DNA from: Desulfurellaceae bacterium
GTDB lineage: Bacteria; Desulfobacterota; Binatia; Bin18
DNA length: 64,000 nt
Assembly: GCA_021296095.1 (NCBI GenBank)
Contig: JAGWBB010000037.1
Span: forward strand, 1-64,000
Reading direction: 5' to 3'
In this document: in pieces, positions 6,848 to 12,234 of the stretch
Layout of the letters: each line of letters opens with the position of its first letter
Position numbering within the stretch: the first letter of the stretch is position 1
Notes under the pieces: generated by a model
Databases searched by the model: none
Seen by the model: the letters and a program-made list of their open reading frames with translations, nothing else
Told to the model about the DNA's origin: nothing
Program-made: the position numbers and the translations under genes

Positions 6848-7756
6848 ATGGCTGTGACGTTTCATAAACTCCACCCCCATTTTGTCGCCGAGGCGGGTCC
6901 GATTGATCTACGCCGGGTACACGACCCGGAGACCCTGGCCGCGATTCGGACCGGCATGGACGACTACGCGCTGCTGGTGTTCCGTGACCAGCGCTTCAGC
7001 GACGAGGAGCACCTGGACTTTGCCCGGCGTCTGGATGGCGAGCTGCACACCAAAACCGGCATCAGCGCCCTCAAAAAGAGCCGCTTGGGCAACGAGGCTC
7101 TGGCCGATGTCTCAAACCTGACCGACCGCGGGCAGCTCCAGCCGGCCGACGACCGGCGGCGCATGTACGGACTGGGCAACCGGCTGTGGCACACCGACGC
7201 CTCGTTTCAGGACCCGCCCGGACGCTACTCGATGCTGTTTGCCCGGGTCATCCCGCCGGTCGGTGCGGACACCGAGTACGCCGATATGCGGGCCGCCTAC
7301 GACGCCTTGTCGCCGGAGCTGAAGACCCGGCTGGAGGGGCTGCGGGTGCACCACTCGATTGCCCACTCGCGTGAAATCCTGGGCTTTGCCTTCTCACAAA
7401 AAGAGCAAGAGATTCTGAAGGGGGCGGTTCATCCTCTGATTCGGAGCCTGCCGCGCTCGGGCCGCAAGTCGCTCTACATTGCCGCCCACGCCTCACGGAT
7501 CATCGACTGGCCGCTGCCCGAAGGCCGGCTGCTGCTGCTCGAACTGATTGAGCACGCCACCCGCCCGGAGTTTGTCTACCGGCATCAGTGGAAGGTCGGT
7601 GATCTGGTGATCTACGACAACCGGGCGACCATGCACCGCGCCCGGCCCTTTGAGGATACGAAATACCCGCGTGAATTGCGGCGGGTGACGACGCTGGATA
7701 TTCAGGACAAGGCCGCTGCCGAGGCCGCCGGCGAGAAGGTCAGGGTGGCCCGGTAG
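6848..7756 (+). CDS. TauD/TfdA family 2-oxoglutarate/Fe(II) dioxygenase
   Basis: A 302-residue alpha-ketoglutarate-dependent dioxygenase. The iron facial triad is visible: HxD in RLWHTDASFQDPPGRYSM and the distal His in IYDNRATMHRARPF, with the following arginine-rich segment RELRRVTTLDI supplying the 2-oxoglutarate-binding Arg. The family includes taurine, 2,4-D and other ether or sulfonate dioxygenases that couple 2-oxoglutarate decarboxylation to hydroxylation. ATG 6848 follows GGGGAGG. Its closest look is to TfdA-like proteins, but the substrate cannot be assigned. The 3' end overlaps, tail to tail, the remains of a helix-turn-helix gene on the opposite strand. Confidence 0.88.
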   Translation: MAVTFHKLHPHFVAEAGPIDLRRVHDPETLAAIRTGMDDYALLVFRDQRFSDEEHLDFARRLDGELHTKTGISALKKSRLGNEALADVSNLTDRGQLQPADDRRRMYGLGNRLWHTDASFQDPPGRYSMLFARVIPPVGADTEYADMRAAYDALSPELKTRLEGLRVHHSIAHSREILGFAFSQKEQEILKGAVHPLIRSLPRSGRKSLYIAAHASRIIDWPLPEGRLLLLELIEHATRPEFVYRHQWKVGDLVIYDNRATMHRARPFEDTKYPRELRRVTTLDIQDKAAAEAAGEKVRVAR

Positions 7757-7857
7757 CCTAAACCGGCCATGACGCGCAGCATCAGGTCTGTCGATACGTC
7801 CTTGGTGTTGCGGTTGAGCATCGCCGTTACACGCGACAATCGGAAGAGGGGCGCATA
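7702..7857 (-). pseudogene. C-terminal fragment of an XRE-type HTH gene
   Basis: Read on the minus strand, this segment encodes LSRVTAMLNRNTKDVSTDLM followed by LRVMAGLGYRATLTFSPAA and a stop at 7702-7704. That is the second half of a small XRE-family antitoxin-like helix-turn-helix protein (the recognition helix end and the C-terminal strand). No start codon or N-terminal half is attached. The missing half is matched by the fragment at 11955-12125, on the same strand, beyond the DUF262/TOPRIM/ATPase cassette. The last 55 bases overlap the 3' end of the TauD-like gene. The upstream boundary is approximate. Confidence 0.6.
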
Positions 7858-8040
7858 TAGCATTGCCGGTTGTCACGCGGTGGGCACTGCGCCTCCCCAC
7901 CTTGAGATCTCGACGGAAAGGGGCCACTAGCGAAAAATCGACCGGAGTATTTCGCCAAAGAGGTGTCAACGATGGGTAGGATGGTCGGCTTTTCCCTCTT
8001 ATCCATCCCGTAGGGCGCTGCCGAACGACACCTCATTAGC

Positions 8041-9708
8041 CTATTCCTCGTCTGACGTTTCACTGTCAGCTACGCTAGCCGCAGTCATCGCTGTTGGCAG
8101 GTGTACGGACCGCTCTCGCATGAATTTCCGTTCATCCTCTATCAGGAACTTCTGCCGTTCTTGGATCAGACTAACTCGGTCATTACTCTGTAACTGGTGG
8201 ATCGAGCTCATCGGGAAGCCATGTGTCGGTAGCAATTTTATTAAGTGGTCGTCTCCCAAGTCAGCCAAGCGTGTGAATGATTGGCCGACTTGGTCTTCGT
8301 CTATGAACATGCGATTCGCGGGACTGCTGAAAAGGTCCGTCATTGCCCCTAGGCTCGATGTCACATAGCCTACTGCCCTGGTTCCACGAGCAGAAAGCAG
8401 ATAACCAGGATCGAGGTGTTCCTCATCGTTGCAAAGTGAGAGGGGGCGAAGAGACGTAAGGTAGAGGAGAAAGGCGCGAACGCGAGCGCTTCGGCTATCG
8501 AAGCGCTCGGGAAACGCCTGGGCTCGTGCGTCCAGATCAACGACACTGACCCCGGTCTTCCTACCTTCAGCAAGGTCTCGGATTTCACTCAGCGCACGAG
8601 TGGCTTGCGTAGTGTTCACTCCGCCAAACCAGCCGGTAAAAGAGGTCACCCAGAACCAGCGCTTTAGCAATGCGACTACATTGGCGTCTGGTTGTGGGCA
8701 CAGTCGAAAAAACTCGCCAAGCATCACAAGTTGGAGCCCATAGGGCAGCAACCGGTCAGAGGTAACTCCCAGATCTTTGAGAAAATCGAGCGCCCTTGTG
8801 ATTCCCTTCTTTGCCTCTTCGAAGGCTGCTGGAAGCTTATCTCTGACCTCCGTCTTGACCACAAGATTCGCCCACTCCTTGGCGTAGATATCAAGGCCGA
8901 GAGCAGCAAGTATTGCCCTAAGAAGGAAGACGCGGTCGAGATTTCCGAACCCTTTTCCCTCAAGCTCTTCCTGAAACTGGTCCAAATTGTCGGCAAGATG
9001 GAACTGTCCTTCCTGATAAGTCAACGCAGAGACCATCTGGTCGGCGGTCATCTTGCGTCCAGTACGATTGAGTCGGGCGAAGACTGCTATGGCACTGTCG
9101 ATGTCTGCCTCACGGATACGAACGAGGGGAATCTGATAGTTTCGGAATGCGTTCGCCAGACGGTCGGCTTGGTCGAGCCAGCGTTTGGCCATATTCTCGT
9201 CATCAACTTTCGAGCTGATGTTGTGGCACGCGGCAAAGAATCCGGCTGTGTTAAGCAGGCTCCTTACGGGGAAGTGGTGCGGCTTCACTCCACCCGTAGG
9301 CTCCCGGAGAAAGTCTCCGTTGTCGAGGTCACAGTACACGCACCATTCCACGTCGTGTATGATGGACTTCTCCCCGTCGGGTAACTGAAGCGTGCCGACA
9401 AGAGTCGATACCCGTTGTTGGCCGTCAAGTAGATATCCAACCACACCACCCGGCTCCCGACTAACCGCGACGGGACCGACGTATTCGGTGGTCTCGACAG
9501 GTTGCTCTGTCTCCCAGACGAGGATGGATCCAATCGGAAAACCGCGTAGTACGCTGTCGAGCAGAGCGTGCAGGTCTGCCTGTTTCCAGACGAAGGGGCG
9601 TTGAAACCTTGGAACGCGGATTTTCCCGGCCATAATGCGTTCGACAAGGTGGCCCAGAAAAATAACCTCGGGGGAGACTATGGTGCGAGAGGGCTGACCG
9701 TCGGACAT
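8041..9708 (-). CDS. DUF262 (ParB/GmrS-like) domain protein of a putative defence cassette
   Basis: A 555-residue protein. Residues about 20-110 form a DUF262 domain: VPRFQRPFVWKQADLHALL at 32-50 and YLLDGQQRVSTLVGTL at about 92-107, including the DGQQR motif that in ParB/Srx-fold proteins binds and hydrolyses nucleotide. The middle is helical. The C-terminal end (about 505-540, ERQKFLIEDERKFMRER) looks like DUF262-only proteins; I see no HNH motif of the DUF1524 type that makes GmrSD and SspE nucleases. It is the last gene of a tight operon, starting 4 bases after the corrected stop of the TOPRIM gene. Codon and base use are less GC-rich than the neighbouring catabolic genes. A role in phage defence is inferred from the domain and its partners. 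Confidence 0.82.
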   Translation of the reverse strand: MSDGQPSRTIVSPEVIFLGHLVERIMAGKIRVPRFQRPFVWKQADLHALLDSVLRGFPIGSILVWETEQPVETTEYVGPVAVSREPGGVVGYLLDGQQRVSTLVGTLQLPDGEKSIIHDVEWCVYCDLDNGDFLREPTGGVKPHHFPVRSLLNTAGFFAACHNISSKVDDENMAKRWLDQADRLANAFRNYQIPLVRIREADIDSAIAVFARLNRTGRKMTADQMVSALTYQEGQFHLADNLDQFQEELEGKGFGNLDRVFLLRAILAALGLDIYAKEWANLVVKTEVRDKLPAAFEEAKKGITRALDFLKDLGVTSDRLLPYGLQLVMLGEFFRLCPQPDANVVALLKRWFWVTSFTGWFGGVNTTQATRALSEIRDLAEGRKTGVSVVDLDARAQAFPERFDSRSARVRAFLLYLTSLRPLSLCNDEEHLDPGYLLSARGTRAVGYVTSSLGAMTDLFSSPANRMFIDEDQVGQSFTRLADLGDDHLIKLLPTHGFPMSSIHQLQSNDRVSLIQERQKFLIEDERKFMRERSVHLPTAMTAASVADSETSDEE

Positions 9709-9712
9709 GTTT

Positions 9713-10683
9713 CTATACTTCCTTCCGAATTATCTCGATGCCGCGCTCAAGGTCACCTTGTCCACGGTCGAGCAGTTCGTTCTTAGCTTGCCCCTCCCAG
9801 AGGGTCCAGCATTTGTAGACATTCTTCCCGAATCCTTTGGAGAGGCCCTCTCGGTCGGCCGGCGACAGGCCAGCAAACAGTTCCTGCTCAGGCGGACAGG
9901 ATTTTTCGACCAGCCATCCTTCATATCGAAGAAATTCTTTTGATCGTCGGTGAGGCTGTCCCAGGCTTCAACCAATTGAGCGTGGTCTGCTCCTACGTCT
10001 TTTCTCTGACTAAGAAGGATTCGGGGGAGGTAATTCTCGGCTTCTCGTTTGGCGAGGACCCAGCATGGAACACTCCACTTCTCGCATTCGGTACGTAGTG
10101 CCCGAGCCGTATGGCTTTCCGTATCCTCCGGACCCTTCCGGTCGCTATCGACAATAACGACCAATCGCGGTCGATAGGGCTTTCCCAGCATCAGGCGCTC
10201 AACATGTTCCAGCATTTTTCCCTTGCCGCCCCGGCTGTCAAATCGGATCGGCTCTCCTGGCTGACGCCAAAGCTTATGAAGAGATTTATCAAGCTCCATC
10301 ACGACGCGTTTTACGAAAGCGCCATCGCTGCCCCGCTCCTCCACTAAAATCTGGAGGGGTTCGTCAGCAAGGCGGAAAGCATTCTCGGGGCTGAGTTCAT
10401 CCGTTCCATTTGGATGCGCTGTCACTCGCACGCGTCTTCCGTGTGGAGCGGAGGTCCACGCATCGCGCTGAATCGACCTGACGAACATCTCGTGTACCCA
10501 ATCACCTTGAGATCCACGGTCACGAATCCAAGACGTGGTTTCAATTATGTCGGGATTTGGCAGACTGGTCGTGTCCCACACGTGCCAGCCATCCTCGATC
10601 CTGTAGATAATGCGATCCAACTGCTGATGAGCGTCCGGGTTGTTCGCTGCACTGGGGTCAATCTCGATGCGCACCAAGCTCAT
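9713..10683 (-). CDS. TOPRIM/DUF4435-like protein, frameshifted near its C-terminus
   Basis: The open frame from ATG 10683 runs to 9730 (317 aa), but its last 60 or so residues look random. Shifting frame once at about 9940-9945 (a missing base in CAAAAG/AATTT) gives a coherent end with EGWLVEKSCPPEQELF, LSPADREGLSKGFGKNVYKC and GDLERGIEIIRKEV, stopping at 9713, 4 bases before the DUF262 start. TOPRIM-like signals are the acidic strand PLQILVEERGSDGAFV, the DxD-type motif RLVVIVDSDRKG and KREAENYLPRILL. This resembles the nuclease half of OLD proteins or AriB of PARIS, encoded apart from its ATPase. The start overlaps the ATPase stop (ATGA). The frameshift may be a sequencing error or a real inactivation. 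Confidence 0.72.
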
Positions 10684-11909
10684 TCCTTCGGCCGGCTGGC
10701 ACGGCGGATAGCAAGAATCTCGTCATAGTCTTCGATGAAGACGCCTTCTGGCCAGCTATCCATCTCGCCGTTCTCGTTGATTTTGATTTTCCGCAGAATA
10801 GAGCCGTGTCCTGGTTCCGTGTCAATCCAGTAAATCAACACGTTCTCGGCCGGCAGTCGTCCTTCCGCGATCCAGCGTCTTGTGCGAAGCAGCATCATTT
10901 CCGAGTGAGTCTCGATAACCATGGGCCGCATGGGGCTAAGGTTCTCGAGCAAGAGTTGTGCGACATCCGCGTGAGCCGCTGGATGGAGCTCGGCTTCGGG
11001 GTGTTCGATGACATCGATACCCTGGCCTGCCTTGCGAGCCGTGAGTGCCATGACCACAACCGGGAGAACATGCGAAAGCCCTCGGCCGGATTGCAAGAGG
11101 CGTACATCGGTGGAGCGGGCAGGCGCTGGGACTACGAGTTCAGAGTAACTGCCCTGTGCTACCACATCGAGACTCACACCGAAGGTGATGCGATACCACT
11201 CGCGAACCGATTCTCTCAACTCGTCGTCCGCCGCTAGAGCTAAGGGCGTATTCTGCCCGTTTGGCCCAAGCTCTGTAGGCGAATGTTCTATCGGAGTGAA
11301 GGGCGATGGAATGAGGCGACGTGGGCACTGCAAATGGCGAACGCCTGAAGCCCAAGCCTTGAGGCCTTTGGCTGACGCACCAACCCAATCTGCAAGATTG
11401 TTCGGCTGCTCGGGGATCAGTCCTCGCCAACCGATCTGTCGCGATTCCTGCGCTCTTCCCGAGACACAGACATTGTAGAGGGCTCCTCTATCGAACCCTT
11501 GCCTTTCCACTGCGACCTTCTGGCCGTCACTGATAAGGCTCCACTTTGAAATCTGACGCTCGGACGGATGAGACGGTGCTACAACGTTCGTAACGGTGGC
11601 CGAAAGCGACAATTCAGTGCCGTTATCCGCTAAGGTTGCGGACAAGTATAGCCGACCGTGAACGGTACGCCCGGTCACCAAATCCTCGAAGGTCTCCCCA
11701 TGTTGGATTCCTCCAGACTTCAACGGAAACGGCTCCAACGTGTCATTCTCTGAAGGAGCCACGCCGCCCGCAAATAGCTGGATCGCCTTGGCTAGTGCTG
11801 TCTTACCCGCGTTATTCGCGCCCACGAGAATGGTCAAAGGGGCGAGTTCCAGCTCGGTCAGTTCAGCATAGCCTTTGTATCGTTCGAGACTGAGCTTGCG
11901 GAGTTTCAT
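10680..11909 (-). CDS. AAA/ABC-type ATPase (OLD/AriA-like) of a putative defence cassette
   Basis: A 409-residue ATPase with an N-terminal RecF/OLD-like start (MKLRKLSLERYKGYAELTEL), Walker A GANNAGKT at residues 30-37, a signature-like segment LLQSGRGLSHVLPVVV near 270-285, a Walker B/D-loop region DVIEHPEAELHPAAHADVAQ, a switch His in VIETHSEMMLLRTRRWI, and a C-terminal tail NENGEMDSWPEGVF typical of DUF3696-type ATPases. The TOPRIM nuclease domain of true OLD proteins is absent here and is encoded by the next gene, which overlaps by 4 bases. This split layout recalls PARIS (AriA ATPase plus AriB TOPRIM). It is the first gene of the cassette; a TTGACA box lies about 45 bases upstream. Confidence 0.83.
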   Translation of the reverse strand: MKLRKLSLERYKGYAELTELELAPLTILVGANNAGKTALAKAIQLFAGGVAPSENDTLEPFPLKSGGIQHGETFEDLVTGRTVHGRLYLSATLADNGTELSLSATVTNVVAPSHPSERQISKWSLISDGQKVAVERQGFDRGALYNVCVSGRAQESRQIGWRGLIPEQPNNLADWVGASAKGLKAWASGVRHLQCPRRLIPSPFTPIEHSPTELGPNGQNTPLALAADDELRESVREWYRITFGVSLDVVAQGSYSELVVPAPARSTDVRLLQSGRGLSHVLPVVVMALTARKAGQGIDVIEHPEAELHPAAHADVAQLLLENLSPMRPMVIETHSEMMLLRTRRWIAEGRLPAENVLIYWIDTEPGHGSILRKIKINENGEMDSWPEGVFIEDYDEILAIRRASRPKE

Positions 11910-11929
11910 TGTTGATCACCTGACAGTCT

Positions 11930-11958
11930 ACCTAAGTGAGTGCTCTATAGAATGTCAA
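11930..11958 (-). promoter_or_regulatory. Possible promoter of the defence cassette
   Basis: On the minus strand a perfect TTGACA (11958-11953) is followed after 17 bases by TTAGGT, a poor -10 match, about 20 bases before the ATPase ATG. The AT-rich stretch TTCTATAGAG lies between them. Assignment is weak because the -10 is poor. Confidence 0.28.
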
Positions 11959-12125
11959 GCCGCTTGAGCATAGAGGATGAACGCTGTTATGCACGACCGG
12001 GAGGTGCGGGCGAGTTTTGCGACTTGCTGATGGGTGAGTCTGCCTTTCTGTACGGCCTCAATGATGGTGTCATTCAAGTCGCTCCGAAGCTGGCTTTCAG
12101 CTCCATCGGCGGGACTGAGCCCCAA
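11955..12125 (-). pseudogene. N-terminal fragment of an XRE-type HTH gene
   Basis: The minus strand encodes GLSPADGAESQLRSDLNDTI then IEAVQKGRLTHQQVAKLART and SRSCITAFILYAQAA with a stop at 11955. This matches the first two thirds of small XRE-family antitoxin-like regulators (DLGxSP...LRSDL then a helix-turn-helix). The frame opens after a stop with only a TTG at 12125, and the end is cut off after the recognition helix, so it looks like a relic. Its missing C-terminal half resembles the fragment at 7702-7857. It could also still be made as a 56-residue protein acting on the operon 45 bases downstream. The rest of the 325-base gap (to 12234) shows no other gene. Confidence 0.5.
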
Positions 12126-12234
12126 CTGTCAAGCTCTCATCCGTCACCTCACTGTTCCATCATCACATCCCGACTGGCGAATCCCTTGGCCATGGCAGCC
12201 CAAGATGCTATGGCCAGAGAAAAAGGAGGACGGC

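Follow-up and report, generated by a model that had tools for sequence, protein, structure and literature searches.

Does the three-gene cassette at positions 8041-11909 of a 64,000-nucleotide stretch of DNA from a Desulfurellaceae bacterium (assembly GCA_021296095.1, contig JAGWBB010000037.1, positions 1 to 64,000 of the forward strand; the whole stretch is called the window below) represent an anti-phage system of a new kind? An earlier note, made from the sequence alone, had read the cassette as an ATPase, a TOPRIM/DUF4435-like protein and a DUF262 protein in a combination that it did not recognise as a named system. Judged by profile matches, the trio is a copy of PDC-M55, a candidate defence system already catalogued in PADLOC-DB 2.0 under the models PDC-M55A, PDC-M55B and PDC-M55C, and not a new kind; its genes A and C also resemble NsnB and NsnA of Menshen, a validated system. 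The matches, at 5e-72 over residues 1-405 of A, 1e-26 over residues 5-262 of B (up to a frameshift) and 1e-133 over residues 9-549 of C, rule out chance, and relatives of the three proteins match the same models throughout (A 47/47, B 47/47, C 51/51). The window copy agrees with PDC-M55 in all three proteins and their sizes, the frameshift in B being the only difference found; its host is an uncultured Candidatus Binatia bacterium. Our preferred account, to which we give a probability of roughly 0.6, is of a PDC-M55 member with a frameshifted B in which C would serve as sensor, A as relay or scaffold and B as nuclease effector.

In the open reading frame (ORF) list of the window, the trio occupies the minus strand as an OLD-type ATPase (gene A, 10680..11909), a TOPRIM-like protein (gene B, 9713..10683) and a DUF262 protein (gene C, 8041..9708). 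The overlapping or near-abutting layout described before lies where it had been placed, with A and B overlapping by 4 bases and the frame-corrected tail of B separated from C by 4 bases. Elsewhere, A, B and C are strongly conserved as one unit. When GTDB contigs were scanned with an alignment of C and the 80 best loci kept, 70 showed the same A-B-C order on the same strand, with gaps mostly of -17 to +20 bp, and the trio was spread over more than ten phyla; the survey of distant genomes that the earlier note had suggested thus finds the three genes together. Record titles with relatives of the trio name Binatia, Acidobacteria, Spirochaetia, Gammaproteobacteria, Longimicrobiales, Vicinamibacteria and Chloroflexota as well as Rhodothermales, Bacteroidetes, Myxococcota, Magnetococcales, Actinomycetota and a cyanobacterium, and many of the closest relatives look, in our own impression, like sponge-symbiont assemblies.

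The unit is also mobile. Lower content of guanine and cytosine (GC) had been taken as a sign of horizontal transfer, and this holds: GC is 0.554 in the cassette against 0.631 in the rest of the window, and falls below that of the flanks in 53 of 55 loci. Over 8040-11922, and not beyond, the cassette DNA of the window is 79% identical to that of two genomes of Candidatus Binatia. Further, the cassettes of a Gammaproteobacterium (L017:5500-9740) and a member of the Longimicrobiales (L018:5509-9743) are 92.3% identical over 4256 bp between flanks that do not match, which points to recent transfer of one discrete unit between phyla, unless one of the assemblies is contaminated. Full trios likewise occur on six viral contigs (L092-L096, L141) and on plasmids, of which that of Paracoccus yeei carries the trio next to a recombinase gene and that of Leclercia has an integrase nearby and a B gene split by the insertion sequence IS1. 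The trio is thus a real, well-conserved and mobile entity, related to Menshen and to PARIS, and the three proteins taken in turn indicate what each may contribute.

Gene A encodes an intact OLD/ABC-type ATPase of 409 residues with a DUF3696 C-terminal tail. The Walker A motif GANNAGKT, seen before at residues 30-37 (11799..11822, minus strand), is confirmed, and its G30, N32, G35 and K36 do not vary among 47 homologues; the ExPE (302-305) and ETHSE (333-337) motifs are intact as well, and ExPE and ETH (333-335) are invariant across the 47 relatives. In Pfam, A matches AAA_15 (E=3e-16), and the DUF3696-like tail described earlier scores 23.8 bits against a cut-off of 22. By profile match the nearest named relative of A is NsnB of Menshen, which A matches over its full length at E=3e-34, more weakly than PDC-M55A, and which is matched by 47/47 relatives (best 2e-55). 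Given that Menshen also joins a DUF262 protein to an OLD-type ATPase with a DUF3696-like tail, the trio could be a divergent Menshen in which C corresponds to NsnA and A to NsnB, the NsnC position being open to several interchangeable effectors of which B would be one. C indeed matches NsnA (E=5e-10 over the DUF262 part only; 51/51 relatives), and the title of Li et al. 2025 reportedly speaks of 'domain polymorphism' of Menshen. However, the third protein of Menshen belongs to the NsnC family, which none of 47 B proteins matches at E<0.1, and two NsnC-family proteins examined (L165, L166) lack the TOPRIM motifs by eye; the 555 residues of C include a long C-terminal domain, whereas the NsnA model has 385 positions; and each of the three proteins scores far better with its PDC-M55 model. 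A Menshen identity is on these grounds possible and rather unlikely.

Gene C, the putative sensor, encodes an intact DUF262/GmrSD_N protein (GmrSD_N E=6e-21). Its predicted structure (mean predicted local distance difference test score, pLDDT, 91) matches BrxU at 7e-12 over the whole protein and SspE at 2e-4 in Foldseek, and it conserves QR, DGQQR and FxxxN, the three DUF262 motifs (PMC11411939). DGQQR, a nucleotide-pocket motif at residues 95-99 (9412..9426, minus strand), is present as DGxQR in 78/78 trio members. In contrast to GmrSD, BrxU (HEC-05), SspE and TgvAB, with which C shares the GmrSD_N fold and these motifs, its His-Me finger residues are not conserved, and it does not stand alone, an ATPase and a TOPRIM-like protein being encoded next to it. 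The C-terminal His-Me (HNH) finger has decayed at 8305..8385 (minus strand), where the alignment places the HHIFP...N...N-K of some solo relatives: the window protein has GYVTS in place of HHIFP, with Tyr in the His column, the catalytic His is kept in 24/78 trio proteins and the helix Asn in 7/78, and only 1/51 C proteins matches GmrSD_C, at E=0.1. The description of C as a DUF262 protein with DGQQR and without an HNH motif accordingly stands, and C has probably lost its own nuclease, to judge from these columns.

Relatives of C that have neither A nor B beside them (L077, L081, L083, L085-L089, L007, L008, L010, L011) keep the full HNH set in some cases and have lost it in others. A strict tie between HNH loss and membership in the trio is weakened by this, since HNH is clear in only about half of the 12 solo proteins and some trio proteins keep the His. 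In the tree, ten solo proteins (L007, L010, L011, L081, L083, L085-L089) form one branch and L077 falls inside the trio clade. The solo gene on an Azospirillum plasmid (L008:6560-7765) is followed directly by a gene for a HipA-family toxin. A second DUF262 gene, with an in-frame TAG and a match to PDC-M55C at E=1e-12, is found in the source genome itself (G000:C3:18040-19134, L002).

The GmrSD/BrxU-type fold of C also favours restriction akin to type IV, in which B would nick or cut modified foreign DNA recognised by C and the cell would not die. The TOPRIM domain of GajA does nick DNA (PMC10952713). We consider such restriction doubtful, somewhat more so than a Menshen identity, as C lacks the conserved HNH set and no DNA-binding domain was identified in the trio. 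On the account that we prefer, the cutting would be done by B and would probably end in abortive infection.

Gene B is read in the window as an ORF of 317 residues (10683-9730) containing VIVDSDRKG, and its homologous tail, of about 65 residues, lies in another frame and stops at 9713. The net one-base frameshift falls within 9900..9912 (minus strand); it maps to about 9907 in the pairwise DNA alignment with each of two intact relatives, L012 and L013, downstream of all putative catalytic residues. Intact copies are present in most relatives, and the fold was taken from an AlphaFold2 model of one of them, L013 (pLDDT 93.7). A TOPRIM fold carries a Glu after strand 1 and a DxD after strand 3. 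In the L013 model, strand 107-110 is followed by E112, a helix, strand 143-146, a helix, strand 171-175, D176-S177-D178, a helix and strand 203-206, that is, an alternating strand/helix core in the TOPRIM strand order, in which Glu and DxD sit where the fold requires them. The corresponding motifs of the window (all on the minus strand; L013 numbering) are VEERGSD at 10324..10344, after core strand 1, with E112 and D117; DSD at 10141..10149, after core strand 3, with D176 and the nearly invariant S177 and D178; and REAENY at 10030..10047, with R210, E213 and Y215. Of the residues named, E112, D117, D176, R210, E213 and Y215 do not vary among 47 homologues, and the same holds for G149 and G150. 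B is thus probably a TOPRIM-like putative nuclease, a call that falls short of proof.

The frameshift itself admits of several readings. Programmed frameshifting was considered and rejected, as close relatives read straight through; by our own reading, the surrounding sequence also presents no canonical slippery site. Because the genome is assembled in 185 contigs, a sequencing or assembly error may be responsible. The word 'repaired' in the earlier note, used there of the cassette, suggests that its author had suspected the lesion. B is damaged in other copies too, by IS1 in L009, by stops or frameshifts in L021 and L030 and by an apparent deletion in L016. A recurrently damaged B would fit a costly effector; the cases are few, and damage is also seen in A (L066 and L091) and in C (L021 and L091).

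How might the three proteins work together? The roles proposed here are drawn by analogy with the DUF262 proteins SspE, BrxU and TgvAB and with the activation of AriB by AriA in PARIS. In BrxU, SspE and TgvAB, DUF262 senses modified DNA and gates a nuclease (PMC11411939); phage resistance by Menshen and Dazbog depends on their DUF262 genes (PMC10952713); and in PARIS, AriA activates the TOPRIM nuclease AriB, which cleaves tRNA (PMC12839542). By this analogy C, a DUF262 protein with the ParB/Srx-fold nucleoside triphosphate (NTP) switch known from GmrSD, BrxU and SspE, would detect invading and perhaps modified DNA and signal through NTP binding or hydrolysis, and A, which like AriA or NsnB is an ABC ATPase of the OLD type, would scaffold the complex and keep B inactive. 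Once C fires, the ATP cycle of A would release or activate B, a Mg-dependent TOPRIM nuclease that would cut DNA or RNA and so bring the infection to a halt, probably through abortive infection. On this view a GmrSD-type protein would have given up its working nuclease, and a separate TOPRIM effector would have taken over the cutting.

A simpler relative bears on the division of labour. Six prophage contigs (L098:7131-9795, L118:1-2627, L130:965-3692, L137:1506-4135, L140:6966-9642, L150:4539-7384) carry a longer ATPase of about 520-560 residues followed by a B-like protein, with no C. Most of these B-like proteins have the VE..SDG, GGG, DSDK and CRExEN motifs, and PDC-M55B was the sole match of the four that were scanned; the pair sits among phage genes, like cargo. 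The existence of this two-gene version suggests that A and B form the core and that C is an added sensor.

The same pair lends something to a mechanism like that of PARIS, in which A would sense a phage anti-restriction protein and free a tRNA-cleaving B, leaving C an accessory. The likeness of the ATPase and TOPRIM split to PARIS and OLD proteins, already pointed out in the earlier note, stands: an OLD-type ATPase is paired with a separate TOPRIM-like protein in the position of AriB, A matches AriA (E=1e-17, best in the Walker A region; 47/47 relatives), and the highest-ranked structural matches of B include 8v46_D, a chain from the AriA-AriB complex, at a value that is not significant. Yet none of the hidden Markov models (HMMs) matched by 47 B proteins at E<0.1 is an AriB model, and membership in PARIS or OLD was rejected on this ground. 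PDC-M55 further differs from PARIS in its added DUF262 protein, which hardly any chromosomal copy lacks and which is therefore no casual accessory. A PARIS-like mechanism is, on balance, improbable. Gabija GajA and the OLD nucleases likewise combine ABC ATPase and TOPRIM parts; PDC-M55 differs in having them on separate chains, in the added DUF262 protein and in the lack of a UvrD-like helicase, and in the ORF list no helicase-sized ORF adjoins A-B-C, so there is no GajB counterpart beside the cassette.

Against PDC-M55 with C as sensor, A as relay and B as effector stand several points. The TOPRIM call rests on motifs and topology, as Foldseek returned no match for B in the PDB at E<0.001; GajA ranked first at E=0.07 and 8v46_D 22nd at E=0.42, neither significant, and the best viral structural match, an RloB-like protein at E=0.12, also exceeds the threshold. 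When PDB sequences were searched with a B alignment of five rows, nothing credible emerged. In Pfam the 317-residue ORF has no match and PF14491 (DUF4435) is matched by 0/47 B proteins at E<1, and hhalign of the B profile against a shallow set of four DUF4435 proteins was weak (E 0.018). Consequently, of the TOPRIM/DUF4435-like label given to B, the TOPRIM half survives on topology and motifs, and the DUF4435 half was rejected. The window copy may be inactive. The literature search yielded neither a paper naming PDC-M55 nor a phage test of it. The PDC systems were put forward by a guilt-by-embedding screen and are described as still awaiting validation for the most part (PMC12988326). Finally, the neighbours of the cassettes are mostly metabolic, and of 115 only a handful reach E<1e-20 with a PADLOC model; as there was no control set, the defence-type matches among the neighbours (type IV restriction endonuclease, DpdF, SoFic, PsyrT, Cas1) are not strong evidence.

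Such ordinary metabolic neighbours would suit a role outside defence, for example as a mobile-element stabilisation module or a housekeeping operon. We hold this to be very improbable in light of the patchy distribution, the low GC, the carriage by prophages and plasmids and the homology of the parts to defence proteins. That the trio serves in defence is what we infer, with good support.

More broadly, PDC-M55 may be a modification- or DNA-sensing abortive system built from a catalytically dead GmrSD-type sensor, an OLD-type relay and an exchangeable TOPRIM killer, with a simpler two-gene relative in prophages. We put this forward tentatively, at less than even odds. If true, it would show how a protein that is both nuclease and sensor can give up its cutting part and take on an ATPase/TOPRIM pair instead, two large defence families would be linked, and type IV restriction and PARIS/OLD immunity would be joined in one pathway. 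PDC-M55 is a good target for study, being a strict unit in many phyla, a clean cassette of about 4 kb that moves between phyla and a set of domains whose logic points to particular point mutations.

The cassette and its short spacers fill a variable site (7757..12173, no strand) that looks like an insertion hotspot, with flanks collinear in genus and family relatives and other genes in the same place. Among these relatives (L177-L182), flank homology breaks off at 7698 and picks up again at 12174-12201; in the sole same-genus genome (L177) it does so at 12174. By our own reading, the genes adjoining the cassette in the window are TauD-like and small decarboxylase-like, and the site holds phosphotriesterase-like and DUF2332-like genes in family relatives, sometimes toxin-antitoxin genes (L181:7104-8800). 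Beside the 12174 junction in L177 (L177:1-1609) lie what we take to be a DNA methyltransferase gene and a ParD-like antitoxin gene.

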